NCBI RefSeq assembly: GCF_945957525.1
Contig: NZ_CAMFLA010000007.1
Coordinates: 62,001-126,000, forward strand
Reading direction: 5' to 3'
DNA: 64,000 nucleotides
Origin: an uncultured Aquitalea sp.
Lineage (GTDB): Bacteria > Pseudomonadota > Gammaproteobacteria > Burkholderiales > Chromobacteriaceae
A program made the position numbers and the translations under genes. The first letter of the stretch is position 1. Every line of letters starts with the position of its first letter. The notes beneath the pieces were generated by a model. The model saw only the letters and a program-made list of their open reading frames with translations. It was not told where the DNA came from and did no database searches. Positions 843 to 64,000 of this stretch are shown piece after piece.

Positions 843-853
843 GTTGGCCGAAG
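843..853 (-). repeat. Dispersed 11-mer CTTCGGCCAAC, copy 1 (reference entry)
   Basis: Just downstream of the monooxygenase gene. Exact copies, given by first base: written CTTCGGCCAAC on the plus strand at 4189, 6033, 9026, 13690, 14926, 15907, 24129, 25030, 28136, 42307, 51732, 53856 and 63887; written GTTGGCCGAAG at 843, 18777, 30888, 32811, 35391, 44474, 45750, 57732 and 63519. Ten-base matches lie at 33590, 34562 and 39948. Seven exact copies are intergenic; the rest are inside genes on either strand. Several intergenic copies extend to CTTCGGCCAACCTT. Confidence 0.85.
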
Positions 854-858
854 ACGGT

Positions 859-1206
859 TCAGGCCGCGTGCCAACCCCGGCTGTCCGGCGGCGCTTCATC
901 GCGCGCCTCAAGCCCGTAGTCGCGCAGGACGGCGGCCACGCGCAAACGATAGGCGGCGAACACGCCGGCACGACCAAGCTGCTGGGCCTGGCGGTGTGCC
1001 GAGTGCTGCCGCCAGACCGCCACCGCAGCTTCGTCGCGCCAGAATGACAGCGACAGCAACTTGCCCGGCTGGCTCAAACTCTGGAAGCGCTCCACCGAGA
1101 TGAAGCCATCCATGCGCTCCAGCGCCGGGCGCAGCATGGCGGCTTCGTCCAGGTAGGCGGCCTCCGCGCCGGCGGCCGGTTCCACTTCAAAAATCACGGC
1201 GATCAT
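859..1206 (-). CDS. Antibiotic biosynthesis monooxygenase (ABM) family protein
   Basis: A 115-residue single-domain protein starting MIAVIFEVEPAAG. The reading frame stays open upstream, but the ATG at 1206 has an AGGAGAG site seven bases before it and follows the P450 stop by 11 bases. The fold signature is the ABM dimeric alpha-beta barrel: hydrophobic first strand, a middle section (MDGFISVERFQSL, KLLSLSFWRDEAAVAVW), and a His-containing helix (QHSAHRQAQQLG). Such proteins act as cofactor-free oxygenases or haem-binding proteins; the substrate here cannot be told. Tight linkage to the P450 suggests they share a pathway or are co-expressed. Confidence 0.7.
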   Translation of the reverse strand: MIAVIFEVEPAAGAEAAYLDEAAMLRPALERMDGFISVERFQSLSQPGKLLSLSFWRDEAAVAVWRQHSAHRQAQQLGRAGVFAAYRLRVAAVLRDYGLEARDEAPPDSRGWHAA

Positions 1207-2296: not shown

Positions 2297-2986
2297 ATGG
2301 ATGAACACTTTCTCGAGACCAGGCTGGCGCAAACCGCCGCCGCCATCGCCGACAAAACCCGGGCCACCATGCTGTGCGCCCTGATGGACGGCCGCGCCTA
2401 CACCGCCACCGAGCTGAGCGCGCTGGCCGATGTGGCGGCCTCAACCGCCAGCAGCCATTTGAGCAAGCTGACCGAACAAGGATTGGTACAGTGCCTGCCG
2501 CAAGGCCGGCATCGTTATTTCCGGCTGGCCGACGCGCAAACTGCGCACGCGCTGGAAAACCTGATGGGCCTGGCGGCCGCGCGTCCCGCCCCGCCGCGCG
2601 TCTCCACGCCGGCGCCTTTGCGGCATGCCCGCACCTGTTACGACCACATGGCAGGCGCGGTGGCGGTGGCGCTGCATGACCACCTGCTGGCGCAGGCCTG
2701 GCTCCAGCCCGACGACTACAGCCTGAGCGCTGAAGGCCAGCGCGTACTGACGGCGCTGGGCATGACCTTGCCGGCGCAAGCGACGCGCCGACGCTTCGCT
2801 TGCGCCTGTCTCGACTGGAGCGAACGACGGCCCCATCTGGGCGGCGCGCTGGGTGCGGCGCTGCTGCAGTGCCTGAAAACGCGCGACTGGGTACGCGCTC
2901 ACCCGGACAGCCGCGCGCTCAGCCTCACTGCGGCCGGCCGCGCCGCGCTGGAAAACCGGCTGGGGCTTGGTTTGCCGAAGCCATGA
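2297..2986 (+). CDS. ArsR-family winged-helix regulator with C-terminal sensor region
   Basis: 229 residues from the ATG at 2297 (MDEHFLETRLAQ). Residues 10-85 form an ArsR winged helix (LADVAASTASSHLSKLTEQGL, then the wing QGRHRYFRL). The remaining 140 residues include a conserved-looking TCYDHMAG segment and a CACLDW motif. The family member with this layout is larger than metal-sensing ArsR proteins (about 100 residues) and is often listed near oxidoreductases. Diverging from the P450/ABM pair by 74 bp suggests it represses them and itself. A strong terminator follows immediately. Confidence 0.8.
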   Translation: MDEHFLETRLAQTAAAIADKTRATMLCALMDGRAYTATELSALADVAASTASSHLSKLTEQGLVQCLPQGRHRYFRLADAQTAHALENLMGLAAARPAPPRVSTPAPLRHARTCYDHMAGAVAVALHDHLLAQAWLQPDDYSLSAEGQRVLTALGMTLPAQATRRRFACACLDWSERRPHLGGALGAALLQCLKTRDWVRAHPDSRALSLTAAGRAALENRLGLGLPKP

Positions 2987-3145: not shown

Positions 3146-4534
3146 TTACATGCGCATGATGGCTTCGATCTCGTCCACCGTCTTGGGAATGGGTTCGCCC
3201 AGCACGCGGGAACCGGTTTCGGTCACCAGCACATTGTCTTCGATGCGGATGCCGCCCATACCCAGATACTCGCGGAAACGTTCGTAGTTGATGTAGTCGC
3301 GATGACGGCCTTCCGCCTCCCACGCGGCCACCAGCGCCGGAATGAAGTACACGCCCGGCTCCACCGTCAGCACCATGCCAGCCTTGAGCGCCTTGCCCAG
3401 TCGCAGGTAACCCAAGCCGAACAGCGGGCTGCGCGCCACATCGTCGCCATAGCCCACCAGGTCTTCGCCCAGGCCTTCCATATCGTGCACGTCCATGCCT
3501 ATCTGGTGGCCCAGCCCGTGCGGAAAGGCAATGGCGTAGGCGCCGGACTCCACCACGTCTTCGGTCTTGCCCTTGAAGAATCCCAGTTCCGCCATGCGTT
3601 CCACCATCACGCTGGCGGACAGCTTGTGGATATCCAGATAGCGCGCACCCGGGCGGATGGCGGCAATGGCGGCTTCCTGCATCTCCAGCACGATGTTGTA
3701 CAACTCGCGCTGCTGCACGGTGAAGCGGCCGCCCACCGGGAAGGTGCGGGTGATATCGCTGGCGTAACCCTCGCCCGAGGTACAGCCGGTATCGTTCAGC
3801 ACCAGATCGCCGTTTTGCAGCACATTGTCGTGATGATGGTTATGCAGCACTTCGCCATGCTTGGAGAAGATGGACGGATAGGCCAGATGCCAGTCATGGC
3901 GGCGCATGATGCCCTCCATGATGCCCACCACCTGATGTTCCAGCACGCCGGCCTTGGACGACTGCATGGCCGCCACGTGCATCGCGCCGGTCACCGCCAG
4001 CGCGGCTTCCATCTGGGCGATTTCCTCCTCGCCCTTGATCTCGCGCAGCGCTACCACTGCCTGGGTCAGCGGCACGGAGAAACCATCCTTCACCTCTGCC
4101 GGATGCGCGCCCAGCAAGCGGCCCAGTTCAATCTTGGTTTCCCCTCGATAAGGGGCCAGGTAATGGATGGCGCGGCCGGCGGCGCGGGCTTCGGCCAACA
4201 CCGTCGCCAGTTGGGCGTAGGGCTGGCTGCGCGTCAGCGCGGCGGAGGCGGCGCGCTCGGCCAGCGACGGCAGCGGGCCGGTCCATACCACATCGGCCAC
4301 ATCCGGATCAGTGCCGAACAGGACGGCCTCACCGCTGTCGGCGTCGATCAGTCCGGCCAGGCCCGGCTCGTTCAGACCGAAGAAATAGCGGAAGCTGGAA
4401 TCCTGCACGAAAGGCAGAGTGTTGTCGGCGTAATTCATCGGCGAATCAACATTGCCGAGAAACAACAGCAGGCCGGACAGACCGGCCGCTTGCAGGTTTT
4501 GGCGGCGTTGCAGATAGATGTCGGGTGCGAACAT
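3146..4534 (-). CDS. pepP: Xaa-Pro aminopeptidase (M24B)
   Basis: 462 residues from the ATG at 4534, chosen because AAGGAG lies six bases upstream; an earlier in-frame ATG has no such site. N-terminal aminopeptidase-P domain (about 1-160) is followed by the pita-bread metallopeptidase domain. Metal ligands are visible: Asp in LNDTGCTSGEG, Asp in ASDITRTFP, His in HGLGHQIGMDVHD, Glu in TVEPGVYF and Glu in RIEDNVLV. The enzyme removes N-terminal residues preceding proline in the cytoplasm, using two Mn ions. Monocistronic and divergent from the CoA-transferase gene. It carries one copy of the dispersed 11-mer at 4189. Confidence 0.92.
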   Translation of the reverse strand: MFAPDIYLQRRQNLQAAGLSGLLLFLGNVDSPMNYADNTLPFVQDSSFRYFFGLNEPGLAGLIDADSGEAVLFGTDPDVADVVWTGPLPSLAERAASAALTRSQPYAQLATVLAEARAAGRAIHYLAPYRGETKIELGRLLGAHPAEVKDGFSVPLTQAVVALREIKGEEEIAQMEAALAVTGAMHVAAMQSSKAGVLEHQVVGIMEGIMRRHDWHLAYPSIFSKHGEVLHNHHHDNVLQNGDLVLNDTGCTSGEGYASDITRTFPVGGRFTVQQRELYNIVLEMQEAAIAAIRPGARYLDIHKLSASVMVERMAELGFFKGKTEDVVESGAYAIAFPHGLGHQIGMDVHDMEGLGEDLVGYGDDVARSPLFGLGYLRLGKALKAGMVLTVEPGVYFIPALVAAWEAEGRHRDYINYERFREYLGMGGIRIEDNVLVTETGSRVLGEPIPKTVDEIEAIMRM

Positions 4535-4737: not shown

Positions 4738-6144
4738 ATGAACCGCCTCCTCGCCCCCAATGCCGCGCTGGCCAGCTTGTGGCAGGCCGCCGGTTTGCCT
4801 GCCGATGCGCTGGGGCGCGTTTCGCTCACCGGCAACGAACCGGCGCTGCCATCCTCTTTCGCCTGCGGCACCGCAGCGCAGGCCAGCATCGCCGCGGCGG
4901 CGTTGGCGGCTACTGAAATCAGTGGCTTGCGCGGCAGCGCCCCGCCCGGTGTCGCAGTGGACATGGCGCACGCGGCGGCGGAATTTCGCAGCGAACGCTA
5001 CTTGCGCGTGGATGGCCAGCCGGCGCCGGAATTATGGGACCCCATCGCCGGCATTTACGCCTGCGCCGATGGCTGGGTGCGCATCCACACTAATTTTGCC
5101 CACCACCGCGACGGCATGCTGGCCTTGCTTGCCTGCGGCAACGACAAACACAGCGTGGCGCAAGCCATGCGCAAATGGCATGCGGAAGCACTGGAACAGG
5201 CAGCCGCCGAAAGCGGCCTGGTAGCCACCAAACTGCGCAGCTTCGACGAATGGGATGCACACCCGCAAGGGCTGGCCGTGGCGACGCAGCCCTTGATCGC
5301 GCTGGAAAAACTGGACGACTCGCCGCCGCGCCCGCTGCCGCCGCTGGCGGCGGGACAGGCGCCGCTGCACGGTCTGCGCGTGCTGGATCTCACCCGCATC
5401 ATCGCCGGCCCGGTGGCCGGCCGCGCGCTGGCCGCGTATGGCGCGGACGTGCTGCACATCAGCGCGCCGCATTTGCCGGGCATCCTGCCGCTGATCATGG
5501 ATACCGGGCGCGGCAAACGCTGCGCCGCACTGGATCTGGACCAACAAGCCGGCAGAGAAACACTGGCGGCGCTGGCAGCCGGCGCGGACCTGTTCTTGCA
5601 AGGCTATCGCCCCGGCGGACTGGCAGAGCGCGGCTTTGGCCCGGCAGCGCTGGCCGCGTTGCGCCCCGGCATCGTCTGCGCGTCCTTGTCGGCCTATGGC
5701 CACACCGGGCCTTGGGCGGGCAGACGCGGTTTCGATTCCCTGACGCAAACCGCCAGCGGTTTCAACCTTGCCGAGGCCACCGCCGCGGGACAGGACACCC
5801 CCCGCGCCTTGCCGGCTCAAGTGCTGGATCACACCGCCGGTTATCTGCTGGCGCTGGGCATGCTGGCCGCGCTGCGCCGCCGCGCCACGGAGGGCGGTAG
5901 CTGGCATGTGCGGGTGTCGCTGGCGCGCACTGGCTTGTGGCTGCGCAGCCTGGGACGGGTAGCGCAGGGACTGGCCGCGCCGGACCCGACACTGGAAAGC
6001 GTCGCGTCTTGCCTGGAAGACGCGCCTTCCGGCTTCGGCCAACTTCGCGCAGTGCGTCATGCGGCGGCGCTGTCCGGCGTGGCGGCAGGCTGGCGCTTGC
6101 CGGCTATGCCGCTGGGCAGCCACGCGCCGGCATGGATAGATTGA
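4738..6144 (+). CDS. CaiB/BaiF family III CoA transferase
   Basis: 468 residues from the ATG at 4738 with an AGGACAGG-type site upstream. Family III signature pieces appear in the second half (VLDLTRIIAGPVAGRALA, ADVLHISAP, GRGKRCAALDLD, LFLQGYRPGGLAERGFG, SLSAYGHTGPWAGRRGFD). The N-terminal 200 residues are a partly degenerate second copy of the fold, as in single-chain two-domain members. The family moves CoA between carboxylic acids; the Asp nucleophile position cannot be assigned with certainty by eye. Substrate is unknown. It converges with the benE-type gene with only 8 bp between stops. Confidence 0.8.
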   Translation: MNRLLAPNAALASLWQAAGLPADALGRVSLTGNEPALPSSFACGTAAQASIAAAALAATEISGLRGSAPPGVAVDMAHAAAEFRSERYLRVDGQPAPELWDPIAGIYACADGWVRIHTNFAHHRDGMLALLACGNDKHSVAQAMRKWHAEALEQAAAESGLVATKLRSFDEWDAHPQGLAVATQPLIALEKLDDSPPRPLPPLAAGQAPLHGLRVLDLTRIIAGPVAGRALAAYGADVLHISAPHLPGILPLIMDTGRGKRCAALDLDQQAGRETLAALAAGADLFLQGYRPGGLAERGFGPAALAALRPGIVCASLSAYGHTGPWAGRRGFDSLTQTASGFNLAEATAAGQDTPRALPAQVLDHTAGYLLALGMLAALRRRATEGGSWHVRVSLARTGLWLRSLGRVAQGLAAPDPTLESVASCLEDAPSGFGQLRAVRHAAALSGVAAGWRLPAMPLGSHAPAWID

Positions 6145-6152
6145 TCCGCCGC

Positions 6153-7478: not shown

Positions 7479-7479
7479 C

Positions 7480-8910: not shown

Positions 8911-10013
8911 TGTCTATGGATACCCTGGATTGCGTCGTGATCGGCGCGGGCGTCATCGGCCTCGCCATCGCCCGCGAACTAGCCTTGCGCGGCCGTGACG
9001 TCATGCTGGTGGAGACCGAGGCCGCCTTCGGCCAACATGCCAGCAGCCGCAACAGCGAAGTGTTGCACGCCGGCATCTATTACCCGCCCGACAGCCTGAA
9101 AGCCCGTCTCTGCGTGGCGGGTCGCCGCCGGCTGTACGACTATTGCGCCGCCCGCGCCATCCCGCACCGCCGGCTGGGCAAGCTGCTGGTAGCCAGCCAT
9201 GAGGACGACCTGCCGCGCCTGCAGGCTTTGCACGCCAACGCCGAGGCCAATGGCGTGGAGGATCTGCAATGGCTGGACGCCGCCGACGTCCGTCGGCTGG
9301 AACCGGCGCTGGCGAGCGCGGGCGCATTGCTGTCGCCGTCCACCGGCATCATCGACAGTCATGCGCTGATGCAAGCCCTGTTGGCGGACGCGGAAGCGCA
9401 CGGCGCTCAACTGGCGCTGCGCTCGCCGCTGGAAACCGGCGCGATAGACACCCACGGCGCGACTCTGCGCATTGCCGGCTGCGACATCCGCGCCCGGCTG
9501 GTGATCAATGCCGCCGGCTTCGGCGCACAAAGCGTGGCCGCCGCGCTGGCGGGCGTTCCACGTGAAACCATTCCGCCGCTGCGACTGGCGCGCGGCGTGT
9601 ATTTCAGCCTTGCCGGGCGCTCGCCCTTCACGCACTTGATCTATCCCTTGCCGGAGCCCGGCGGGCTGGGCACGCACCTGACGCTGGATCTCGGCGGCCA
9701 AGCGCGCTTCGGGCCGGACGTGGAATGGGTGGACAGCCTGGACTACCGGGTAGACCCGGCCCGCAGCCGCGCCTTTGAAACCAGCATTCGTCGCTGGTGG
9801 CCCGCGCTGCCCGACGGCGCGCTGCAAGCCGCCTATGCCGGCATCCGTCCCAAGTTGACCGGCCCGGGCGAACCGGACGCCGACTTCCAGCTACAAGACA
9901 TGGCCGCGCACGGTCTGCCGTCGCTGATCAACCTCTACGGCATCGAATCGCCCGGACTGACCAGCTGCCTCGCCCTGGCCGAGCTGGTGGCGGATACTGT
10001 GCAAGGCCGGTAA
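8910..10013 (+). CDS. LhgO-like FAD-dependent oxidoreductase (DAO family)
   Basis: 367 residues starting [19 protein letters not shown], overlapping the MocR stop by one base. The FAD-binding GxGxxG motif is at residues 10-15. The section [14 protein letters not shown] is characteristic of the L-2-hydroxyglutarate oxidase subgroup, as is [12 protein letters not shown] near the C terminus. The family oxidises 2-hydroxy acids, passing electrons to oxygen or quinones. The exact substrate is inferred. It contains one dispersed 11-mer (9026) and a parS-like half-matching palindrome (9554). Spaced 41 bp from the DUF4188 gene. Confidence 0.8.
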
Positions 10014-12223: not shown

Positions 12224-12772
12224 ATGCCGCTTTCCCGTCTGCTGCGCTTGCTGCCGCTGTGCGCGGCGCTGACCGCCCTGCCCGCCGCCGCCGCGCTGGT
12301 CAACGGCGCCATTGCGCCGGACTTCACCACCACCGCCGCCAAAGGCGGCGACAGCTTCCGTTTTTCCCTGTACGAAGCGCTGAAGCAAGGGCCGGTAATT
12401 CTCTATTTCTACCCGGCCGCCTTTACCAGCGGCTGCACGGTGGAAGCCCACCTGTTTGCCGAAGCCACCGATCGCTTCAAAGCGCTGGGGGCCACCGTCA
12501 TCGGCGTATCCAATGACAATATCGACACGCTCAAGCGCTTTTCCGTGTCCGAATGCCGCAGCAAGTTCGCCGTGGCCGCCGACGGCGACAAGGCCATCAT
12601 GAAAGCCTATGACGCGGTGATGGTGCCCGGCCTGGGCTACGCCAGCCGCACGTCTTACGTCATCACGCCCGATCACAAGGTGATTTACTCCTGGACGGCG
12701 CTGGACCCGAACCAGCACGTGGAAAACACCATGAAGGCGCTGGAAGCATGGAAAGCCGGCAAACAGCCCTGA
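12224..12772 (+). CDS. Exported peroxiredoxin (AhpC/TSA family)
   Basis: 182 residues with an AGGAG site. Residues 1-24 are a signal peptide (LLRLLPLCAALTALPAAAAL), so the enzyme should act in the periplasm. The thioredoxin fold carries the peroxidatic Cys71 in YFYPAAFTSGCT; the family motif PxxxTxxC is met. Cys111 (SVSECRSKF) is a possible resolving cysteine, as in BCP-like members. It would reduce hydrogen peroxide or alkyl hydroperoxides. Single gene; no electron donor adjacent. Confidence 0.85.
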   Translation: MPLSRLLRLLPLCAALTALPAAAALVNGAIAPDFTTTAAKGGDSFRFSLYEALKQGPVILYFYPAAFTSGCTVEAHLFAEATDRFKALGATVIGVSNDNIDTLKRFSVSECRSKFAVAADGDKAIMKAYDAVMVPGLGYASRTSYVITPDHKVIYSWTALDPNQHVENTMKALEAWKAGKQP

Positions 12773-13689: not shown

Positions 13690-13700
13690 CTTCGGCCAAC
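13690..13700 (+). repeat. Dispersed 11-mer, copy between the MerR/CMD and EamA genes
   Basis: Exact CTTCGGCCAAC extended by CTT, eight bases beyond the intergenic hairpin. Confidence 0.85.
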
Positions 13701-14635: not shown

Positions 14636-15385
14636 TCAGTCTTTGTCGATCCGGCGCTCTGTTTTGCCGTGCCGGCGATAGTGGGTGGGGCTTTGCCCGG
14701 TATGGCGGGCAAAGCGGTCGCTGAAGGCGGCCAGGCTGCCGTAGCCGCAAGCCTCGGCCACTTGCTGCACCGGCAGACGGGTGCTTTCCAGCAGGCGGCG
14801 CGCCTTGTCCATGCGCAGGTTTTGCAGATACTGGCCGGGCGACACGCCCAGTTGCCGACGGAACAATTCGCTGAGCTGCCGCGGACTCAAATGCACGTCG
14901 CGGGCCAAATCGGCCAGCTTGCAGTCTTCGGCCAACCTTGCCTCCAGCCAGGCGCAAGCCCGCCGCAAGCGCGGGTCCGGCGCGGCATCGCCGCCGGGTA
15001 GAAGCTGCAGCAGCAAGGCCAACATGCTCAGCTGACAAGCGGGCGTTGCGGTCTGGCCGGCCATGTCGCGCAGAAAAACCAGATAGCTTTGCAGCGGCGG
15101 CGACAGCGGGCGAAATGGCGCGGCCGCCAGCCAGGCGCCGCTCATGGACAGCGGCACGTCGGCTACCAGAAAACGGTTGTCGCCGCTGGCGGCAAAGCCG
15201 TGGCTGGCGCCCGCCTCAATGACGGCAAGACTGCCGGCGTCCACCCGGCCGCCGCGCCCGTCCACCTCCAGCTCCAGACAGCCCCGCACCGGCAACACCA
15301 GCTGATGGTGATCATGCTGGTGGCTGTGACATTCGCCGGGATAGCTGCGCAAGCTGAGCCCGGGCTGGAGGAGCGGAGCGGTCAT
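14636..15385 (-). CDS. AraC-family regulator with N-terminal cupin
   Basis: 249 residues from the ATG at 15385. N-terminal cupin sensor (CHSHQHDHHQLVLPVRG, LAVIEAGASHGFAASGDN) about residues 15-90; C-terminal double helix-turn-helix about 150-249 (LADLARDVHLSPRQLSELFRRQLGVSPGQYL, VQQVAEACGYGSLAAFSDRFARHTGQSPTHYRR). Lies upstream of and in line with the EamA exporter gene, its probable target. The start has no strong ribosome site. One dispersed 11-mer lies at 14926. Confidence 0.85.
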   Translation of the reverse strand: MTAPLLQPGLSLRSYPGECHSHQHDHHQLVLPVRGCLELEVDGRGGRVDAGSLAVIEAGASHGFAASGDNRFLVADVPLSMSGAWLAAAPFRPLSPPLQSYLVFLRDMAGQTATPACQLSMLALLLQLLPGGDAAPDPRLRRACAWLEARLAEDCKLADLARDVHLSPRQLSELFRRQLGVSPGQYLQNLRMDKARRLLESTRLPVQQVAEACGYGSLAAFSDRFARHTGQSPTHYRRHGKTERRIDKD

Positions 15386-15469: not shown

Positions 15470-16996
15470 TCAGGCAGCGCGGCCGGCGGCCTTCTCCAGC
15501 AGGAGGCGCGGGCCGCCGCCGCGATATTCCGCAATCCAGTCGTCCAGCACGCTTTGCGCATGCGCCGGCAAGTGCAGTTTGAGCTTGCTGCGCCGCCAGA
15601 GGATATCCTCGGCGCGGGTGGCCCATTCCTGATCCACCAGATAGCTCAATTCGGCTTCATACACGCCGGGCAACACTTCACGGCCCATCTGGTCCAGCCC
15701 GGTGGCGCTGCCGATCAGGGTGTCCAGGCGAGTGCCGTAGGCGCGGGCGTAACGTGTCAACAGCGCCGCAGGCATCCAGGGGAAACGCTGGCGACGCACA
15801 TTCAGGAAGCGTTCGAAACTGTCCATATCGCCGCCGGGCAAGGCTTCCTGCGCGGTGCCGCTGGGCTTGTTGTTGCCCAGCAGCGGCGCCAGGCGATCCA
15901 CCGCCTCTTCGGCCAACTTGCGGAAGGTGGTGATCTTGCCGCCAAACACCGACAACATGGGCGCGCCTTGCGCATCCAGCTCCAGCGAGTAATCACGGGT
16001 AACGCTGGCGGCGCTGGCGGCTTCGTCGTCCAGTAGCGGACGCACGCCGGAATAGGTGCTCACCACATCGGCCGGGCTGATGCTGCCCTTGAAATAGCGG
16101 TTGGCCATCTGGCACAGATAGGCGATTTCATCGCCGTCTATCGCCACCTGACCGGGGTCGCCGTGGTATTCGATGTCAGTGGTGCCGATCAGGGTGAAAT
16201 CCTGCTCGTAGGGAATGGCGAAAATGATGCGCTTGTCCGGGTTCTGGAAGATGTAGGCATAAGGGTGGTCAAACAGCTTCTTCACCACGATGTGGCTGCC
16301 CTTCACCAGCCGCACCGATTTGGGAGACGGCAAGCCCAGCGTGTCCTTGAGCAGGCTCTCCACCCACGGGCCGGCGGCGTTCACTACGGCGCAGGCGCGT
16401 ACTTCTTCACGCTCCCCGCCCGCTTTCTCCAGCGTGCACACCCAGTGCTCGCCGTCGCGCCGCGCCGCCACACAGGCCGTGCGCGTAGCAATGCGCGCGC
16501 CATGCTCGGCCGCGGACATGGCGTTGAGCACCACCAGCCGGGCGTCTTGCACCCAGCCGTCCGAATAGACGAAACCACGTCGGAAGTCCGCCTTCAGCGG
16601 GCCGCCGGCCGGATGGCTGGCAAAGCTGACGGTTTCCGAGCCGGGCAGAATCTCGCGCCGCGCCAGATGATCGTAGAGAAACAGACCGCAGCGGATCATC
16701 CACTCCGGACGCTGGCTCTTGTCGTGCGGCATGACAAAGCGCAGCGGCCAGATGATGTGCGGCGCGGCTTTCAGCAGCACTTCCCGCTCCTGCAGCGCTT
16801 TGCGCACCAGGCCGAACTCGTAGTACTCCAGATAGCGCAAGCCGCCATGAATCAGCTTGGTGCTGGCCGAAGAAGTGTGCGAGGCCAGGTCGTCCTTCTC
16901 GCACAGCATGACCGACAAGCCGCGGCCGGCCGCGTCGCGGGCAATGCCCGCGCCGTTGATGCCGCCGCCTATCACCAGGAGATCGTAGAGTTTCAC
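15470..16996 (-). CDS. glpD: Aerobic glycerol-3-phosphate dehydrogenase
   Basis: 508 residues from a GTG at 16996. FAD-binding motif DLLVIGGGINGAGIARDAAGRG (residues 5-26), then HTSSASTKLIHGGLRYLE, typical of GlpD. Further conserved parts are VRLVKGSHIVVKK and FGGKITTFRKLAEE. It oxidises sn-glycerol-3-phosphate to dihydroxyacetone phosphate and passes electrons to quinone at the inner membrane. Length is as expected for E. coli-type GlpD. Three boxes matching the GlpR half-site lie upstream. One 11-mer copy at 15907. Confidence 0.95.
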   Translation of the reverse strand: MKLYDLLVIGGGINGAGIARDAAGRGLSVMLCEKDDLASHTSSASTKLIHGGLRYLEYYEFGLVRKALQEREVLLKAAPHIIWPLRFVMPHDKSQRPEWMIRCGLFLYDHLARREILPGSETVSFASHPAGGPLKADFRRGFVYSDGWVQDARLVVLNAMSAAEHGARIATRTACVAARRDGEHWVCTLEKAGGEREEVRACAVVNAAGPWVESLLKDTLGLPSPKSVRLVKGSHIVVKKLFDHPYAYIFQNPDKRIIFAIPYEQDFTLIGTTDIEYHGDPGQVAIDGDEIAYLCQMANRYFKGSISPADVVSTYSGVRPLLDDEAASAASVTRDYSLELDAQGAPMLSVFGGKITTFRKLAEEAVDRLAPLLGNNKPSGTAQEALPGGDMDSFERFLNVRRQRFPWMPAALLTRYARAYGTRLDTLIGSATGLDQMGREVLPGVYEAELSYLVDQEWATRAEDILWRRSKLKLHLPAHAQSVLDDWIAEYRGGGPRLLLEKAAGRAA

Positions 16997-18036: not shown

Positions 18037-19533
18037 TCAAGCGTCGGCCCAGGCTTTGGCGGCCATGACGGCGCGGTTCCAGCCGGCCACTTGCCGCGCC
18101 ACCTCTTCGGGGGTCTGCTGCGGCTTGAAGCGGCGGTCCAGCTGCCACTGGCCCTGGATGTCTTCCACGCCCTGCCAGTAACCCACCGCCAGACCGGCCA
18201 GATAGGCCGCGCCCAGCGCGGTGGTTTCAGTGATGCGCGGACGCACCACGTCCACCGACTGGATGTCGGACTGGAACTGCATCAGCAGTTCGTTGACCGT
18301 GGCGCCGCCGTCCACGCGCAATTCGGCAATGGCCATGCCCGCGTCGGCCTCCATGGCCTTGAGCACATCCATGGTCTGGTAGGCGATGCTGTCCAGCGCG
18401 GCGCGGGCAATATGCGCGGCGCGGGTGCCCAGGGTGGCGCCGACGATGGTGCCGCGCGCATTCGGGTTCCAGTGCGGCGCGCCCAGACCGGCAAAGGCCG
18501 GCACCAGGTACACCCCGTCGCTGCTGTCCACTTCCTGCGCCAGCGGGCCCACATCGGCCGAGTGACGGATGATGCCGAGACCGTCGCGCAGCCATTTCAC
18601 CACCGCGCCGCCAATGAAGATGGAGCCTTCCAGCGCGTACTGCACCTTGCCGTCCAGTTGCCAGGCAATGGTGGTCAGCAGGTTGTTGGAGGAGGAAATC
18701 GGCTTGTCGCCGGTGTTCATCATCATGAAGCAGCCGGTGCCATAGGTGTTCTTCACCATGCCCGGCTGGGTGCACTGTTGGCCGAAGAGCGCGGCCTGCT
18801 GGTCGCCCGCCACGCCGGCAATGGGAATCTCCACGCCCAGATGCGCGGCATGGGTATGGCCGTACACCTCGCTGGAGCTTTTCACCGCCGGCAGCATGCT
18901 GACCGGAATGCCCATGATGTCCAGCAGCTCGGCATCCCACTGCAGGGTATGAATGTTGAACAGCATGGTGCGCGAGGCGTTGGATACGTCGGTGACGTGC
19001 ACCTTGCCGTGGGTGAAGTTCCAGATCAGCCAGCTGTCCACCGTGCCGAAGGCAAGCTTGCCTTGCTGGGCGCGTTCGCGCGCGCCGGGCACGTTGTCCA
19101 AGATCCATTTGATCTTGCTGCCGGAGAAGTAGGCGTCCACCAGCAGACCGGTCTTGGCGCGGATGGCGTCCGCCAGACCGCGCTCTTTCAATTCGTCGCA
19201 AAAGCCGGCGGTGCGGCGATCCTGCCAGACGATGGCGTTGTAGACCGGGTGCCCGGTTTCACGGTCCCACACGATGGTGGTTTCCCGCTGGTTGGTGATG
19301 CCGATGGCGGCGATGCTGCGGCCATCAATGCCGGCTTTGGCCACGACTTCGGCGGCTACGCCCGCCTGGCCGCCCCAGATTTCCAGCGGATCGTGCTCAA
19401 CCCAGCCCGGCTGGGGATAAATCTGGCGAAATTCTTTCTGGGCCAGGGAAACAATGTCGCCGGCCTGATTGAACAGGATGGCACGCGAACTGGTGGTGCC
19501 CTGGTCCAGAGCGAGGACGAGTTTGTCGTTCAT
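18037..19533 (-). CDS. glpK: Glycerol kinase
   Basis: 498 residues from the ATG at 19533, with AAGGAG eight bases upstream. The FGGY-kinase hallmarks are [15 protein letters not shown] at the N terminus, the glycerol-contact [10 protein letters not shown], and the C-terminal [19 protein letters not shown]. It phosphorylates glycerol to sn-glycerol-3-phosphate in the cytoplasm, trapping it after entry by GlpF. First gene of a likely glpK-glpF unit; two imperfect GlpR boxes lie about 130 bases upstream. One 11-mer copy at 18777. Confidence 0.96.
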
Positions 19534-24128: not shown

Positions 24129-24139
24129 CTTCGGCCAAC
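24129..24139 (+). repeat. Dispersed 11-mer, copy between convergent MCP and MerR genes
   Basis: Exact CTTCGGCCAAC followed by CTC, two bases upstream of the stop of the MerR gene on the opposite strand. Confidence 0.85.
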
Positions 24140-42020: not shown

Positions 42021-42643
42021 GCCACGCTTTTGCACTGTACACACTGACCTGCCTCGCCCTGGTGGCGGCGCCGGGCCCGGATAACTTGCTGGCCATCGCC
42101 CGCGGCCTGTCGCAAGGCAAGCAGGCCGCCGCCGTGTCGGCGCTGGCCTCCGGCGCGGCCATCTTTACCCATGTCAGCGCCGCCGCGCTGGGCCTGACTG
42201 CCTTGCTGATGGCCTCCGCCGCCGCCTTCATGGTGGTGAAACTGATTGGCGCGGCCTATCTGCTGTGGCTGGGCGTGCAGGCCATTCGTCACCGCTCGCT
42301 GGTGCGCTTCGGCCAACTGCAGCCGCTCCCCTTGTGGCACGTGTTCAAGAGCGGCTTTCTGTCCGGCAGCCTGAATCCCAAGGTGGGGATTTTCATCATG
42401 GCCTTCGTGCCGCAGTTCATCCCGCCAGCGTCTGCCAACGTAGGCATGCAAATGCTGTTGCTGGGCGGCTGGTTCGCCCTGCTCACCACGCTGGGCTTCG
42501 CCGCCATGGGACTGTCCGCCAGCCTGCTTTCGCGCTGGCTGACGTCTCGGCCCCGCCTGATTGCCGGCCTGAACGTGGGCGCGGGCCTGGCTTTCATTGC
42601 AGCCGGCTTGTCCGTCGGGTTTGCCAAGGCGCGGCAAAGCTGA
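42017..42643 (+). CDS. LysE/RhtB-family exporter
   Basis: 208 residues, start overlapping the UDG stop by four bases. N-terminal AAPGPDNLLAIARGLSQGK and FLSGSLNPKVGIFIMAFVPQF are the family signatures; six TM helices. The second such exporter in this window; about 30% similar by eye to the one at 33606 and not adjacent to it, so not a tandem duplication. Transcription continues into the small membrane gene. Confidence 0.88.
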   Translation: MSHAFALYTLTCLALVAAPGPDNLLAIARGLSQGKQAAAVSALASGAAIFTHVSAAALGLTALLMASAAAFMVVKLIGAAYLLWLGVQAIRHRSLVRFGQLQPLPLWHVFKSGFLSGSLNPKVGIFIMAFVPQFIPPASANVGMQMLLLGGWFALLTTLGFAAMGLSASLLSRWLTSRPRLIAGLNVGAGLAFIAAGLSVGFAKARQS

Positions 42644-45749: not shown

Positions 45750-45774
45750 GTTGGCCGAAGGGCAAGCTTCGGCC
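45750..45774. repeat. Hairpin built on the dispersed 11-mer, between hutU and hutH
   Basis: The exact GTTGGCCGAAG at 45750-45760 is followed by its partial complement CTTCGGCC six bases later, so the motif forms the arm of a hairpin (GGCCGAAG / CTTCGGCC) at the end of hutU. There is no T-run. Confidence 0.7.
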
Positions 45775-47645: not shown

Positions 47646-48578
47646 TTAGCGCGCCAGATGTCGTGTGAGGGTCCAGGCCAGCCGGGCAGCGGTCTTCGCG
47701 CCATGGCCATCGATATCGAAATGCGGGTTCAGCTCCACCAGATCGGCGGCGGCCAGCTTGCCGCTGGCGGCGATCCGGCGACAGAGCGCCTCCACCACCG
47801 GCAGTTCCACGCCCATGGCGGCGGGCGCGGAGACGGCGGGCATGACCGAGGCGGGCAGCACGTCCAGATCGATGGTGAGGTAGACGATGTCCACCTTGTC
47901 GATAAAGGACTGCAGCGCATGGTCGGCGGCCGGCAGGTCGGCGGCGGTCAGCTGGCTGTCCAGCAGCCATTGCACGCCCAGTGTTTCCGCACGGGCGAAC
48001 AAGGCGCGGGTGTTGGATGGTTCGGCCACGCCCAGGCACAAGTAATGGAAAGGGCGGTCCTGACGCTGGCACTCGGCGGCAATCTGCGCAAACGGCGTGC
48101 CGGAGGTGGCCTCCGCCGCTTCGCGGATATCGAAATGGGCGTCGAAATTGATGATGCCGATCACCTGATCCGGCGCCGCCGCCGCCAGTCCGCTCCAGGT
48201 GCCGAAGGCGGTTTCATGACCGCCGCCCAGTACCAGCGGAAAGTGGCCGGCGCACATCAGTTCGCGCACGGCATCTGCCAGCCGCTGGTGTGCGGCGGCC
48301 AGATCGCCGTCGGTGCAGGCCACATCGCCCTTATCGCACAGCGGTTGGGCCTGGTGCCAGGCCAGATTGGCCAAAGCCTTGCGCAGCGTCTGCGGCGCGG
48401 CGGCCGCGCCCACGCGCCCCTGATTGCGGCGCACGCCTTCATCGCAGGCAAAGCCGATAATGCCCACGCCCTTCGGCAAACCTTGCGCAAACGGCGCCAC
48501 TTGCTGGTGCCAGCGGCGCGCCAGTTCGCCTTCGCCGGCATCCACGCGGCCGGTCCAGATGCTCATGTCGGGTGTCAT
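47646..48578 (-). CDS. hutG: Formimidoylglutamase
   Basis: 310 residues from the ATG at 48578 with AAGGA upstream; a second in-frame ATG at 48566 is less well placed. Arginase-superfamily Mn motifs: GGGHET, NFDAHFDIRE, LDVLPASVMPAVSAPA. It hydrolyses N-formimidoyl-L-glutamate to glutamate and formamide, so this organism uses the four-step route (no HutF/HutG deformylase pair). Start and hutI stop share one base (TAATG), implying coupling. Confidence 0.93.
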   Translation of the reverse strand: MTPDMSIWTGRVDAGEGELARRWHQQVAPFAQGLPKGVGIIGFACDEGVRRNQGRVGAAAAPQTLRKALANLAWHQAQPLCDKGDVACTDGDLAAAHQRLADAVRELMCAGHFPLVLGGGHETAFGTWSGLAAAAPDQVIGIINFDAHFDIREAAEATSGTPFAQIAAECQRQDRPFHYLCLGVAEPSNTRALFARAETLGVQWLLDSQLTAADLPAADHALQSFIDKVDIVYLTIDLDVLPASVMPAVSAPAAMGVELPVVEALCRRIAASGKLAAADLVELNPHFDIDGHGAKTAARLAWTLTRHLAR

Positions 48579-51731: not shown

Positions 51732-51742
51732 CTTCGGCCAAC
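51732..51742 (+). repeat. Dispersed 11-mer before the DUF962 gene
   Basis: Exact CTTCGGCCAAC followed by CTT, 27 bases upstream of the ATG. Here it lies in a leader or promoter, not at a gene end. Confidence 0.8.
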
Positions 51743-53231: not shown

Positions 53232-53810
53232 ATGGCTCAATACCACCCGATTTCCCGATATCTTCCGGTCACCTTCCCCAACGGCAACCGCGTGCGCCGC
53301 TTCGGCAAACACTGTCCGGCCTGCCGCAAGATGGTGGGCTGTGAAAACATGTTCGGCATCGCCACGCTGGAACAGGACAAACTGTTCCTGGCGGCGCAAG
53401 CTCATTGTCCGGCCTGCGGCCATCGCTTTCCCGTGGCCTGCGTCATCAACGACAACAAGCACGTCAATCGCGTGGCCTTGCCGATGTGGCTGTTCCGCTT
53501 CTGGCTGAAAATGATCACCCGCAATCGTCCCTTGCCGCCGCAGGTGGAAAGCTGGGAACTGTCGGACGCCGAAGCGGCGGCCGCGCCCAGCGGCGCGATT
53601 GTGGAAAAAATGAGCGATGTGGTCTGCTCCGAAGACGTGCTGGGCCGTTTTGACAACCAGCCCATCTGCGCCTGGGTGGAATACCAGGGCCGGCGCTTCG
53701 AATTCGAACGCACCGCGCCGCCGGGCGGCAAGTGGCAACTGAACGCCAATGAACTATTGCTGGAAGGCCGGCTGATCTACCGGCTGCCCTCCGTGGAAAC
53801 CACCGCCTGA
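53232..53810 (+). CDS. Zinc-ribbon-like protein of unknown function
   Basis: 192 residues. Two CxxC pairs (CPACRKM at about 28-34 and CPACGHR at about 61-67) suggest a zinc ribbon in the N-terminal half. The rest (MWLFRFWLKMI, then an acidic linker and beta-rich C terminus WVEYQGRRFEFE) is unrecognised. No signal. It lies between the mutarotase gene and rsmE, and no operon partner is evident. Confidence 0.65.
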   Translation: MAQYHPISRYLPVTFPNGNRVRRFGKHCPACRKMVGCENMFGIATLEQDKLFLAAQAHCPACGHRFPVACVINDNKHVNRVALPMWLFRFWLKMITRNRPLPPQVESWELSDAEAAAAPSGAIVEKMSDVVCSEDVLGRFDNQPICAWVEYQGRRFEFERTAPPGGKWQLNANELLLEGRLIYRLPSVETTA

Positions 53811-53842: not shown

Positions 53843-53872
53843 AAAAAGGTTGGCTCTTCGGCCAACCTTTTT
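53843..53872. terminator. Bidirectional terminator built from the dispersed 11-mer
   Basis: AAAAAGGTTGGC - TCTTCG - GCCAACCTTTTT, a 12-bp perfect stem. The right arm with its loop is the exact 11-mer (53856-53866). Sits between the convergent zinc-ribbon gene and rsmE. Confidence 0.9.
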
Positions 53873-55659: not shown

Positions 55660-56265
55660 TCAAGGCGCCGTGCGGTAATCCACCAGCTCGGTTTGCTGCC
55701 AGTTGAAACGGCCGCCCTTGCTGTTGAAGTCGCTGTATTCCGATTTGACGATGTGGCCGATGGCGGGCGCGTACCAGGTAGTTTCTTCAAAGGGCCCGGA
55801 ATAGCTGTCAAATGACCACTGTCCTTTGCGCACCAGCTTGTAGGCCATGAATTCGCCGGCCTTCACTTTGACGCTTTCCTGCCCCTTCACCATCACTTCG
55901 CCCTTGAACGCTTCATTGCCCAGCTGGAATTCGAAAGGCATGCGCCCGCCTTCGCGCAAAGGCCAGAAGAACAAAGGAATCACCTTGGCCTTGCCTGTGG
56001 CCGGGTCTGCGATATAACGGTTGAAATCGGCATCGCGCGGGCTCTGACAAGGGTTTTGCTGATTCTCACACAGCGTGAACTGGTACTTGCCGCCCTTCAT
56101 GGCGCGAAACACAAATACCAAATGCTGGACTTCCTGGTGGCTGTAGCCATCGTACACCGCGTATTCGAAACGGCTGCCCGGCTTGAGCTCGGGCCGCATG
56201 ATCTCTTCGGCAAACGTCGCCGCCGCGGCACCCAGCATGGCAAGGCCCAAAAGCAATGTCTTCAT
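55660..56265 (-). CDS. Secreted protein of unknown function
   Basis: 201 residues from the ATG at 56265 with CGGAG upstream. Signal peptide about 1-20 (LLLGLAMLGAAAATFAEE). Beta-rich mature protein (RFEYAVYDGYSHQEVQHLVFVF, QESVKVKAGEFMAYKLVRKG, HIVKSEY) that could be a lipid- or polymer-binding barrel. A CysX11Cys pair (CENQQNPC) may form a disulfide. No family named with confidence. Downstream of gmhA with a 65-bp gap and could be co-transcribed. Confidence 0.65.
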   Translation of the reverse strand: MKTLLLGLAMLGAAAATFAEEIMRPELKPGSRFEYAVYDGYSHQEVQHLVFVFRAMKGGKYQFTLCENQQNPCQSPRDADFNRYIADPATGKAKVIPLFFWPLREGGRMPFEFQLGNEAFKGEVMVKGQESVKVKAGEFMAYKLVRKGQWSFDSYSGPFEETTWYAPAIGHIVKSEYSDFNSKGGRFNWQQTELVDYRTAP

Positions 56266-57029: not shown

Positions 57030-57920
57030 TCAGCGGGCGACGATCAGCGCCGTACCGGCGCAACTGATCAGCGCGCCCAACCAGGCCAGCGCGGGCGGGG
57101 GCTGCCGCGTTGCCGCCCACAGCATGGGCAGGATCAGCACCGGGCTGAGCGCGGAGAGCATGCCCACCGTGGCCACATTGGCGCGCTGCAAGGCCAGCAT
57201 GATCAACGTCATGCCCAAGCCCAGCGCCACCAAGCCGTTCAGCGCGGTCAAGCCCAGCATGCGCGGGGTGTAAGCGCCCCGGCTGCGCGCCAACCGCACA
57301 CCGGCCAGCAACAACACATAGTGCGCGCCGCAGCTGACACCCATGCGCAAGGCGGAGGCGGTAACGGGTTCCAGCCCGGCAGCCATTGCCGGCTTGGCGA
57401 AAAAGGTGCCCAGCGCCTGACACAGCGCGGCCAGCAAACCCAAGGCCACGCCTGCCGCCAGATGCTCGCTGCGCTCCCAGGCGTGGTTGTCAGCCTGACG
57501 TTTGCCGAAGGCCACCGCCAGCAACACGCCGCCAAACACCAGCACACTGCCCAAGGCCGCTGTCAGGCTCAGCCTTTCAGACAAAAACAGTACGCCCAGC
57601 AACACGGAAAACACGGAGTGCGTGGCAAACAGCAAGCCGGCGCGACGGGGCCCCAGACGGTTCATGGCGGCAAAATACAAGGTATCGCCAAAGAAAATGC
57701 CGGCCAGGCCGGACAGCAAGGCCGGCGGCAGGTTGGCCGAAGACAGGCTGTGCCAGCCGCCGCTGATCAGGCTGATACCGCCCAGTACCACGGTCAGCAA
57801 AGTGAGCCGCAAACGGGTAAACGCGAATGGACCGAAGTGACGGGACGGCGTGGCGCCCAGCATGGCGCCGAAAGCCCAGCATGCGGCAGCGCCCACGGCG
57901 GCCAGATCGTAAAGCAGCAT
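57030..57920 (-). CDS. EamA-family (DMT) exporter
   Basis: 296 residues from the ATG at 57920. Ten TM helices in two EamA halves; the second half has TALNGLVALGLGMTLIMLALQRANVATVGMLSALSPVLILPMLW, typical of the family. Substrate unknown. Third of four DMT proteins here, and not obviously a recent duplicate of the others. One 11-mer copy at 57732. Confidence 0.86.
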   Translation of the reverse strand: MLLYDLAAVGAAACWAFGAMLGATPSRHFGPFAFTRLRLTLLTVVLGGISLISGGWHSLSSANLPPALLSGLAGIFFGDTLYFAAMNRLGPRRAGLLFATHSVFSVLLGVLFLSERLSLTAALGSVLVFGGVLLAVAFGKRQADNHAWERSEHLAAGVALGLLAALCQALGTFFAKPAMAAGLEPVTASALRMGVSCGAHYVLLLAGVRLARSRGAYTPRMLGLTALNGLVALGLGMTLIMLALQRANVATVGMLSALSPVLILPMLWAATRQPPPALAWLGALISCAGTALIVAR

Positions 57921-61385: not shown

Positions 61386-61767
61386 GGCGGGCGGATACAG
61401 CTTGTAGTGAGTCAGTATCACAGCTTACCGGCTAGTGCCCTGCGCCGAAACCATGACGGATGCACAGGGTGTTCTGGATACAAAACAATGCCTCTGCCGC
61501 ATGCTGCGTTGGCACAATCGCCGCAGTCAGCGCGGCAATCGCGTCAATCTCTTTGACGTTGACGTAAACGTAACTTATATTCCGCCCACAGCCGCCCCGA
61601 CAAGGCGCGATCCGGCGACATCACCCGCATTCGGGCCGAATCCGGCCTACAACAGAAGAATAAAACCGGACGCGCACCCTGGGCGCCACACCACGCCACA
61701 AGCGAGAAATCGACCGCAGCCCTTCGGCCACCATGCCGGAGAGAGTCGTGCGGCAGGAGGAGAAAGC
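61386..61767. other. Divergent promoter region between rarD and the indolepyruvate oxidoreductase gene
   Basis: No gene. A TTGACGTAAACGTAA box at 61559-61573, overlapping a repeated TTGACGTTGACGT, resembles the LiuR-type operators known in branched-chain amino acid catabolism and precedes the ATG by about 195 bp. Confidence 0.5.
61559..61573 (+). promoter_or_regulatory. LiuR-like box upstream of the indolepyruvate oxidoreductase gene
   Basis: TTGACGTAAACGTAA is close to the reported LiuR consensus (TTTACGTNNACGTAAA type) but not exact; assignment from memory. Confidence 0.45.
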
Positions 61768-64000
61768 ATGTCGATCCGCCATGTAGATCTGGAAGAAAAG
61801 TACACCGCGGCCACCGGCCAGGTACTGATGACCGGCATTCAGGCGCTGGTGCGCCTGCCCATGCTGCAACAAGAGCTGGACCGCGCCGCCGGCCTCAATA
61901 CCGCCGGCTACGTCACCGGCTACCGCGGCTCGCCGCTGGGCAACGTCGATCAGGCCATGCAAAAAGCCGAGGCCTATCTCAAGCCGCACAATGTGGTGTT
62001 CCATCCCGGCCTTAATGAGGATCTGGCCGCCACGGCGGTATGGGGCACGCAACAGGTCAACATGTTCGAAGGCGCCAAGTACGACGGCGTCTACGCCATG
62101 TGGTACGGCAAGGGGCCGGGCGTGGACCGTTCCGGCGACGTGATCAAGCACGGCAATGTGGCCGGCACCTCGCGCCACGGCGGCGTGCTGCTGGTGGCTG
62201 GCGACGACCACGCCGCCAAATCCTCCACCTTCCCGCACCAGTCCGACCATATTCTCGCCGCCAGCATGATTCCGGTGCTGTCGCCCTCCGGCGTGCAGGA
62301 GGTCATCGATTTCGGCCTGCACGGCTGGGCGATGAGCCGCTATTCCGGTTGCTGGACCGCCATCAAGGCCATTTCCGACACCATCGAAAGCTCGGCGGTG
62401 GTGGACATCTCGCCGGAGCGCTTCCAATTTGTCATCCCGGCGGACTTCCCCATTCCGGAAGGCGGCCTGTCCATCCGCTGGCCGGATCCGCCGCTAGTGC
62501 AGGAAAAACGCGTACTGCATCACCGCCTCTACGCCGCCCTCGCCTACGCCCGCGCCAACAAACTCAACCGGGTCACGCTCGATTCGCCCAAACCGCGCCT
62601 GGGCATCATCACCTGCGGCAAGAGCTATCTGGACGTGATGCAGGCGCTGGACGATCTGGGCATCGATGAAAAACTGGCCGCCGACATCGGCCTGCGCATC
62701 TTCAAGGTGGGCATGGTATGGCCGCTGGAGCCGGAAGGCGTGCGTCAGTTTGCCGAAGGCCTGGACGAGATTCTGGTGGTGGAAGAAAAACGCCAGATCA
62801 TCGAATACCAATTGAAAGAACAGCTCTACAACTGGCGCGACGACGTGCGTCCGCGCGTGGTGGGCAAGTTTGCCGAAAAAGGCGAATGGGCGTTGCCGCA
62901 CGGCGACTGGTTGCTGCCCGCCGCCGGAGAACTGACGCCGGCCATGATTGCGCGCGCCATCGCCAGCCGCTTGGCGCTGATCTTTGACAGCCCGGTGATC
63001 CATGACCGGCTGAAGTTCTACGACGAAAAAGAAGCGCAGTTGGTGAAGCCGCGCGAAAACATCGCCCGCGTGCCGCATTACTGCTCAGGCTGTCCGCACA
63101 ACACCAGCACCCGCGTGCCGGAAGGCAGCCGCGCGGTCGCCGGCATTGGCTGCCATTACATGGCGCACTGGATTGAAGGCGACAGCACCAAAACCTTCAC
63201 CCAGATGGGTGGCGAAGGCATCACCTGGGTGGGCCAGGCGCCCTTCACCCATACCCGCCACATTTTCACCAATCTGGGCGACGGTACTTACTTCCACTCC
63301 GGCATTCTGGCCATCCGCGCCGCCGTGGCGGCCAAGGTCAACATCACCTACAAGCTGCTCTACAACGACGCGGTGGCCATGACCGGCGGCCAGCATGTGG
63401 ACGGCTATCTCGATGTGCCGATGATTACCCGCCAACTGGCGGCCGAGGGCGTGAAACGCATCGTTATCACCAGCGACGATCCGGACAAATACCGCGGCGC
63501 GCACGGCCCGGTGACGGGGTTGGCCGAAGGCGTGGACATTTTTCATCGCCGCGAGCTGGACCGTCTGCAACGCGAGTTGCGCGAGACCGAAGGCGTCACC
63601 GTGCTGATCCACGATCAGACCTGCGCCGCTGAAAAACGCCGCCGCCGCAAACGCAAAGAGTTTCCCGATCCGGCCAAACGCGCCGTCATCAACGAGCGCG
63701 TCTGCGAGGGTTGCGGCGACTGCGGGCAGAAATCCGGCTGCCTGTCGGTGTTGCCGGTGGAAACCGCGCTAGGCCGCAAACGCCGCATCGATCAGTCCAG
63801 CTGCAACAAGGACTTCAGCTGCGTGGAAGGCTTCTGTCCCAGCTTCGTCACCGTGGAAGGCGGCCAGTTGAAGAAACAGGCCGGCGCTTCGGCCAACCTT
63901 GCCGACATGCCGCCGCTGCCCGCCCCGGCCATTCCGGCGCTGGATCAGCCCTACGGCATCATGGTGACCGGCATTGGCGGCACAGGCGTGGTCACTATCG
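61768..64000 (+). CDS. Fused indolepyruvate ferredoxin oxidoreductase (runs off window end)
   Basis: About 744 codons visible, with AGGAGGAG upstream of the ATG. N-terminal pyruvate:ferredoxin-type domain (GYVTGYRGSPLGNVDQAM, GPGVDRSGDVIKHGN), TPP-binding half (IGCHYMAHWIEGD, NLGDGTYFHSGI, DAVAMTGGQHVDG) and a 4Fe-4S pair near codons 645-690 (CEGCGDC, CNKDFSC, CPS). The C-terminal gamma domain begins (GIMVTGIGGTGVV) as the window ends. Fused forms of about 1150 residues are typical of proteobacteria. It decarboxylates aryl- and branched-chain 2-oxo acids with ferredoxin reduction. Two 11-mer copies (63519, 63887). Confidence 0.93.
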   Translation, partial: MSIRHVDLEEKYTAATGQVLMTGIQALVRLPMLQQELDRAAGLNTAGYVTGYRGSPLGNVDQAMQKAEAYLKPHNVVFHPGLNEDLAATAVWGTQQVNMFEGAKYDGVYAMWYGKGPGVDRSGDVIKHGNVAGTSRHGGVLLVAGDDHAAKSSTFPHQSDHILAASMIPVLSPSGVQEVIDFGLHGWAMSRYSGCWTAIKAISDTIESSAVVDISPERFQFVIPADFPIPEGGLSIRWPDPPLVQEKRVLHHRLYAALAYARANKLNRVTLDSPKPRLGIITCGKSYLDVMQALDDLGIDEKLAADIGLRIFKVGMVWPLEPEGVRQFAEGLDEILVVEEKRQIIEYQLKEQLYNWRDDVRPRVVGKFAEKGEWALPHGDWLLPAAGELTPAMIARAIASRLALIFDSPVIHDRLKFYDEKEAQLVKPRENIARVPHYCSGCPHNTSTRVPEGSRAVAGIGCHYMAHWIEGDSTKTFTQMGGEGITWVGQAPFTHTRHIFTNLGDGTYFHSGILAIRAAVAAKVNITYKLLYNDAVAMTGGQHVDGYLDVPMITRQLAAEGVKRIVITSDDPDKYRGAHGPVTGLAEGVDIFHRRELDRLQRELRETEGVTVLIHDQTCAAEKRRRRKRKEFPDPAKRAVINERVCEGCGDCGQKSGCLSVLPVETALGRKRRIDQSSCNKDFSCVEGFCPSFVTVEGGQLKKQAGASANLADMPPLPAPAIPALDQPYGIMVTGIGGTGVVTI

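Follow-up and report, generated by a model that had tools for sequence, protein, structure and literature searches.

We propose that the 11-mer CTTCGGCCAAC, which recurs throughout a stretch of 64,000 nucleotides from the genome of an uncultured Aquitalea sp. (contig NZ_CAMFLA010000007.1, positions 62,001 to 126,000; called the window here), is very probably the word of a divergent DNA uptake sequence (DUS) system of the Chromobacteriaceae, which, judged from the genomes compared, would go back to the ancestor of the family and have undergone repeated loss. The uptake-sequence interpretation, put forward earlier in what we call the sequence-only reading, is supported by the genome-wide count of the word, by the dialects found in sister genera, by the choice of codons inside genes, by the lack of strand polarity over 320 kb and by the presence of a ComP orthologue, as discussed below. 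As far as the literature found goes, a DUS-type word is new for this family; such words are known from Neisseria, where the core differs.

In the window, exact counting gives 22 copies of CTTCGGCCAAC, 13 on the plus strand and 9 on the minus strand, as had been claimed, and the three additional ten-base matches also mentioned then are recovered, with the inner ten bases TTCGGCCAAC occurring 25 times. The claim that this lies far above chance holds as well, with only 0.06 copies expected under an order-3 Markov model of the window, and under the same model CTTCGGCCAAC is the most over-represented 11-mer. The sites with at most one mismatch number 44, as compared with 1.8 in shuffled sequences (maximum 6, 100 shuffles). 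The extended form that had been noticed on several copies, CTTCGGCCAACCTT, is present at 6 of the 22. The sequence-only reading was right that some copies are intergenic, but their number, given as 7, becomes 8 of 22 with the crude gene caller that was used for all the in-gene and intergenic calls of copies. It is noted that a second word, CTTCGGCAAAC, with 10 copies in the window, had been overlooked.

For the whole genome (4.05 Mb in 35 contigs), CTTCGGCCAAC is counted 1069 times (549 and 520 on the two strands), as compared with 5 times for the reversed word taken as control. The word, which is non-palindromic and dispersed, thus occurs about once per 3.8 kb, and in a de novo word count of 464 kb of the genome it ranks at the top, with 137 copies versus 0.67 expected. 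The second word occurs 449 times in the genome (224 and 225), with 3 copies of its reversed control. Read on the other strand, it has T in place of G at position +4, and its ten-base form is found 80 times in the 464 kb here versus 0–2 times per 100 kb in the other samples of a set of 13 from the family; CTTCGGCAAAC may be a second dialect or may reflect a relaxed position. Over 320 kb in which the GC skew keeps its sign, the two orientations of the word occur 46 and 44 times (runs test, z 0.43), which shows no bias, while one 80-kb stretch (contig C14) is skewed, with 18 versus 7. The spacing of the copies is slightly more even than random, with 89 of 2000 simulations being equally even, and fewer copies are present in bins of low G+C (Spearman 0.33, p 0.03). 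Besides, the exact word is absent over two stretches of 15–16 kb, at G000:C1:32332-48760 and 5818-21364, the first of which is low in G+C (0.556). The intergenic share in the 464 kb is 32 of 137 copies (23%), while non-coding sequence makes up 12.6%.

In coding sequence, the choice among synonymous codons favours those that spell the word. Among the 105 genic copies in the 464 kb, 97 lie in three frame contexts, with 54 in Leu-Ala-Glu, 28 in Phe-Gly-Gln and 15 in Ser-Ala-Asn. The spelling TTG-GCC-GAA is used for 80 of the 203 occurrences of Leu-Ala-Glu, where codon usage predicts 9.9; TTC-GGC-CAA is used for 31 of the 44 occurrences of Phe-Gly-Gln, where 7.1 are predicted; and TCG-GCC-AAC is used for 29 of the 48 occurrences of Ser-Ala-Asn, where 3.6 are predicted. 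The same counts in the long open frames of two congeners lacking the word give 0 of 25, 0 of 11 and 1 of 5 (G003) and 0 of 27, 0 of 10 and 1 of 5 (G005). By these numbers, codon bias and protein repeats are rejected as the cause. Of the findings that the sequence-only reading had named as refuting, neither is seen, since the genome-wide counts lie far above expectation and neither codon bias nor a single protein repeat is sufficient to explain the word. Moreover, when sites of both words are aligned with relatives, no gap falls within the word in 25 of the 29 comparisons, which cover 10 distinct sites, and thus the copies look like products of substitution rather than insertions. At one of the sites, the copy at window position 44474, Crenobacter luteus reads GTTGGCCGAGG, which includes the Crenobacter dialect; because two Chromobacterium genomes lacking the word also read GTTGGCCGAGG, this site gives no evidence of dialect replacement.

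The comparison was extended to 61 Chromobacteriaceae genomes, with the de novo counts made on samples of 100 kb (464 kb for this genome) and with the genera denoted g2 to g10 where no name is at hand. Related top words also emerge from the samples of 7 further genomes, which represent 6 genera; these words have the constant core CGGCCAAC with genus-specific ends, and the dialect words can be written as GTTGGCCGAA(G), GTTGGCCGAG (Crenobacter), GTTGGCCGCA and GTTGGCCGAAC. The top word is CTTCGGCCAAC in this genome; it is GCTCGGCCAAC in g4, TGCGGCCAAC in g10, GTTCGGCCAAC in g5, CTTCGGCCAAC(C) in g6 and g9, and TTCGGCCAACC in g8. No comparable top word is found in the samples of G003 and G005 of the same genus, G016 (g2), G029 (g3) and G038 (g7). 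By whole-genome counts of the degenerate word YKCGGCCAAC, the 61 genomes divide into 23 carriers (294–3107 copies) and 38 non-carriers (53–245 copies, with 23–123 for the reversed word). The gap between them is narrow at a single point, the lowest carrier (G046, 84% complete) having 294 copies and the highest non-carrier (G039) having 245; the exact 11-mer, with 116 versus 17 copies, separates these two. In nine other species of the genus the exact CTTCGGCCAAC is near background, with 2–10 copies (controls 2–7), and all 19 genomes in the genus of Chromobacterium are without the word. By comparison of loci with named records, g2 includes Chromobacterium (G014 being C. haemolyticum and G010 being C. 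alkanivorans, each 100% over the locus) and also G020, which is the record Xenophilus sp. AP218F; g4 is Crenobacter, with G034 being Crenobacter luteus, and the named record of the latter species has CTCGGCCAAC 10 times in 17 kb. Among 349 genomes sampled from the order, only the six family carriers in this sample are rich in CGGCCAACCT (442–1267 copies), and the 338 genomes from other families have at most 64 copies each, the highest being G190 (64 in 6.6 Mb).

On the complementary strand, together with the flanking bases that it favours, the word is AG-GTTGGCCGAA-G, giving the 12-mer AGGTTGGCCGAA, which is identical at 9 of 12 positions to AG-simDUS and AG-mucDUS of the Neisseriaceae, on the same strand and without shift. 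Among shuffled words of equal composition, 1.2% reach such a match when any of eight dialects, both strands and shifts are allowed. At position −2, A is favoured in all 8 carrier samples of the family (37–83%), and at position −1, G is favoured in 7 of the 8 (44–77%), with g5 favouring A; AG-DUS have the same bases at these positions. It is also seen in the 464-kb sample that few one-mismatch copies deviate at +6 to +10, with 0–2 per substitution versus 137 intact copies, and that somewhat more of them deviate outside, including a large T class of 59 copies at +4.

The same word-count script was applied as a control to five genomes outside the family, four of which were chosen by similarity of ComP and the fifth of which (G108) is the outgroup of the tree. 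From 80 kb of G187, which is expected to belong to the Neisseriaceae from its ComP matches, the script recovered AGGCCGTCTGAA, the AG-DUS of Neisseria, with 55 copies versus 0.02 expected. The de novo counts for the samples of G254 and G273 gave nothing comparable. Among the repeated words of G108 (family f49, L344-L347) are CGACAGGCTCAG and CTCAGCCCGAAC, with 5 copies each in 80 kb, which suggests a longer interspersed repeat. For seven known dialect words of the Neisseriaceae, the counts in the 13 samples from the Chromobacteriaceae are 0–7 per word.

The putative receptor in this genome is a ComP orthologue encoded at C9:75195-75596, in a gene that is read as the last in a run of candidate minor pilin genes. 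Its best matches of solved structure are Neisseria ComP 2M3K (E 2.8e-10) and also 5HZ7 and 2NBA (about 3e-10), and the orthologue of G047 matches solved ComP with E 1.8e-13. A ComP profile search finds orthologues across the family, with the matches in g3 being at background level only (best 9.0e-18 to 3.5e-16) and the copies in g7 being diverged (2.8e-35 to 8.2e-23). ComP was read from 50 of the 61 genomes, the excluded ones being four of g3 together with G013, G026, G040, G049, G052, G056 and G057; the TGA within the match of G038 is an ordinary stop codon rather than an internal one. After the W-P-x-L-P stretch, the pattern N-[TAV]-D-x2-3-[YF] is present in 18 of 19 carriers (g8 being the one without) and in 1 of 31 non-carriers, where it reads DNVDQASF (G021) and looks like a chance match. 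The loop of this genome's own ComP is NTDAGKF, and that of the nine congeners is NAR. In the ComP tree, the own ComP stands beside those of the congeners (support 85), and therefore the gene looks inherited rather than imported; its branch is long, and the protein has three residues fewer after the NTD motif. ComEC (PF03772), the other competence gene that was searched for, is present in this genome (E 7.9e-53) and in 59 of the 61. The strongest match to PF16732 (ComP_DUS) in this genome, at C14:124554-124805, was rejected as the receptor, as its globular domain matches PilE (4NOA) and it follows a large gene read, as a candidate only, as PilY1-like; moreover, PF16732 has matches in all 61 genomes and, like ComEC, does not discriminate.

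The history of the word was considered on an oriented tree of the rpoB region comprising 27 of the 61 genomes, with G046 excluded for its short locus. Carriers are present on deep branches (g10, and g4 with g5) and are also nested among non-carriers: g6 and g9 are found next to g7, and this genome and g8 next to Chromobacterium and the congeners, where the exact placement is weakly supported. The dialects follow the branches of the tree. The best tree has 5 changes of carrier state (bootstrap range 4–6), and the starred branches by themselves force 3. A word present in the family ancestor and repeatedly lost fits best; repeated gain is a possible alternative history.

Based on these data, we consider that a ComP-family type IV minor pilin on the cell surface would bind DNA bearing the word, and that the binding would favour entry of this DNA via the pilus machinery and ComEC. 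Biased uptake of kin DNA, with homologous recombination, would then spread and keep the word, as has been proposed for Neisseria. It is probable that the ancestor of the Chromobacteriaceae already possessed the system, which may have split into dialects around the invariant CGGCCAAC and been lost in Chromobacterium, in the nine sampled congeners of the present species and in two other genera, and it may descend from the same ancestral DUS as that of the Neisseriaceae. There is also a fair possibility, somewhat short of even, that the DUS predates the Neisseriaceae and is ancestral to them together with the Chromobacteriaceae, with CTG changing to CCG while ComP was remodelled with one disulfide fewer, and with whole genera, including Chromobacterium, later shedding the word while keeping ComP and ComEC.

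Several points weigh against the uptake-sequence interpretation. In all the dialects found here the core at +6 to +8 is CCG rather than CTG, the latter being, according to Frye et al. 2013 (PMC3630211), conserved in all DUS dialects and essential. On the receptor side, all 50 ComP orthologues are without the beta-1 Cys, 49 of them having exactly two Cys beyond residue 60 and all Cys beyond that residue lying within 16 residues of the end; no Cys is found in the Neisseria 'GFC' column in the own ComP and 13 aligned orthologues. In Neisseria ComP, two disulfides (beta1-DD loop and beta4-beta5) are crucial for DUS binding, as stated in PMC12061091. The loop pattern of ComP was picked after the sequences had been viewed and its correlation with the word is confounded by kinship, with the independent pairs amounting to two on supported branches and four on the whole tree. 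As ComP and ComEC are also present in most non-carriers, their presence does not predict the word; conversely, ComEC (PF03772) was not found in two word-rich carriers of g10, G057 and G058 (98% and 88% complete), which may be due to a gap in the assembly or to uptake having been lost recently. The pairing of copies in hairpins is weak and its enrichment modest, with arms at most 22 nt apart at 5 of 41 intergenic sites of both words (0.58 expected), the genic sites giving 8 of 155 versus 2.1 expected. In the control, only one of the two samples of family f44 showed a DUS, the 80 kb of G147 showing none. All statistics other than the whole-genome counts come from 464 kb of the 4.05 Mb. Finally, among the papers found for competence in Chromobacterium, none is, judged by title, on these species. 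As to G147 itself, which matches the ComP profile, its 80 kb contain 0 of the seven known dialect words, and its top repeat includes GTAGCGGTATCAGA, with 12 copies (L332-L335).

Other explanations of the word can be envisaged. It is unlikely, though conceivable, that the word is a relic, spread by biased uptake in the past while the system is now inactive in the species. That the nine other sampled congeners are all without the word and that the own ComP is long-branched and shortened by three residues after the NTD motif would fit with this; by contrast, hardly any one-mismatch copies deviate at +6 to +10 (0–2 per substitution versus 137 intact) and the codon choice is strong. There is also a slight chance that the word serves chromosome maintenance, as a Chi-like hotspot, as an FtsK-orienting word similar to the FtsK-orienting polar sequences (KOPS) or as a site organising the nucleoid, to which a dispersed, non-palindromic word at about one per 3.8 kb and the skewed 80-kb stretch of C14 would be suited. 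Against this stands the even orientation, 46 versus 44, over the 320 kb of constant GC-skew sign, and a site essential for segregation would not be expected to be absent from whole genera or to drift into dialects. For the alternatives of a nucleoid or methylation site, both named in the sequence-only reading, no positive support was gained.

A recognition site for methylation or restriction is very improbable. The word contains GGCC and the window has a pair of genes for a C5 methylase and a restriction enzyme, but the over-represented unit is 11–14 nt long and not a palindrome of 4–6 nt, its flanks vary by dialect in other genera, and recognition by a restriction-modification system gives no reason for 1069 copies. 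We can give hardly any credence to a mobile repeat, of the type of miniature inverted-repeat transposable elements or repetitive extragenic palindromic sequences, or to an artefact of codons or peptide repeats. Some copies do lie in hairpins, but the flanks of the word are little conserved farther out than about three bases to each side, 25 of 29 comparisons with relatives, at 10 distinct sites, have no gap in the orthologous columns, and the copies in genes fall in several reading frames (LAE, FGQ and SAN), with synonymous bias in them.

We now give the copies of the window individually. On the plus strand, CTTCGGCCAAC lies in genes at 4189..4199, 6033..6043, 9026..9036, 14926..14936 (followed by CTT), 15907..15917, 25030..25040, 28136..28146, 42307..42317 and, by the crude caller, 51732..51742 (followed by CTT), and it is intergenic at 13690..13700 (followed by CTT), 24129..24139 and, by the same caller, 63887..63897 (followed by CTT). 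The remaining plus-strand copy, at 53856..53866 and followed by CTT, forms an arm of the terminator-like hairpin 53843-53872, as had been described; this is the one clear case of such a hairpin in the window stretch scanned. On the minus strand, the copies at 18777..18787, 35391..35401, 44474..44484 (the site read as GTTGGCCGAGG in the three relatives above) and 57732..57742 lie in genes, those at 843..853 and, by the crude caller, 63519..63529 are intergenic, and that at 45750..45760 lies between the gene of urocanate hydratase (45821-47491, minus strand), for which the nearest named records are of Chromobacterium and Crenobacter, placing the genome in the Chromobacteriaceae, and the next gene (44180-45712, minus strand). 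The second word CTTCGGCAAAC is at 38337..38347, 44752..44762, 48471..48481, 53300..53310 and 56205..56215 on the plus strand and at 2970..2980, 12454..12464, 42999..43009, 57500..57510 and 62748..62758 on the minus strand.

The two other minus-strand copies belong to a restriction cassette, where the sequence-only reading had located them correctly. The cassette consists of a C5 cytosine methylase gene (31449-32606) and a gene of a type II restriction enzyme with DUF4928/REase_II (32596-33522), and it is flanked by 53-nt direct repeats (98% alike) at 30845-30897 and 33547-33599, each of which terminates in the uptake-type word AAGGTTGGCCGAA. One copy, at 32811..32821, is within the restriction enzyme gene, and the other, at 30888..30898 and followed by CTT, is at the end of the left repeat.

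With regard to earlier work, no paper was found with the motif CTTCGGCCAAC in the context of uptake, in a search that covered published papers, few of them subscription ones, and left preprints outside; the papers found to contain CTTCGGCCAAC have titles unrelated to uptake, and the one paper found with CGGCCAAC in connection with uptake sequences has it inside a cloning primer. Part of the observation may already be present in Table S1D of Frye et al. 2013, which gives over-represented 10-mers of genomes with 'no DUS'. If the uptake-sequence interpretation is true, the published claim of no obvious DUS in genomes of the group would be extended or corrected. Moreover, dialects across a family with a different core, including the losses within one genus, would provide a natural series of pairs of word and receptor, so that it could be tested by what means ComP recognises the word, and how such recognition of self originates, drifts and is lost.

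Finally, we compare the system with those known. It is similar to the DUS of the Neisseriaceae in having a short, non-palindromic word that is abundant on both strands, dialects in agreement with the phylogeny, a 12-mer register with favoured AG at −2 and −1, enrichment between genes and an encoded ComP orthologue. It differs from them in having CCG instead of CTG as the core and G at +5, in the ComP orthologue without the beta-1 Cys, in the few hairpin pairs and in its density, which is 54 per 100 kb for both words here versus 92 in the Neisseria-type sample G187. It also belongs to another family, some members of which were reported to be without an obvious DUS; as such, Frye et al. 2013 (PMC3630211) name Laribacter hongkongensis, Lutiella nitroferrum 2002, Pseudogulbenkiania NH8B and two Chromobacterium genomes, and our counts for Chromobacterium agree with that statement. 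The uptake signal sequences (USS) of the Pasteurellaceae have the core GCGG and another minor pilin, PpdA/ComN, as the predicted receptor, according to PMC12616744. They belong to another bacterial class, and the present word would work in the same way, as an address of self with a copy number of the order of 1,000.

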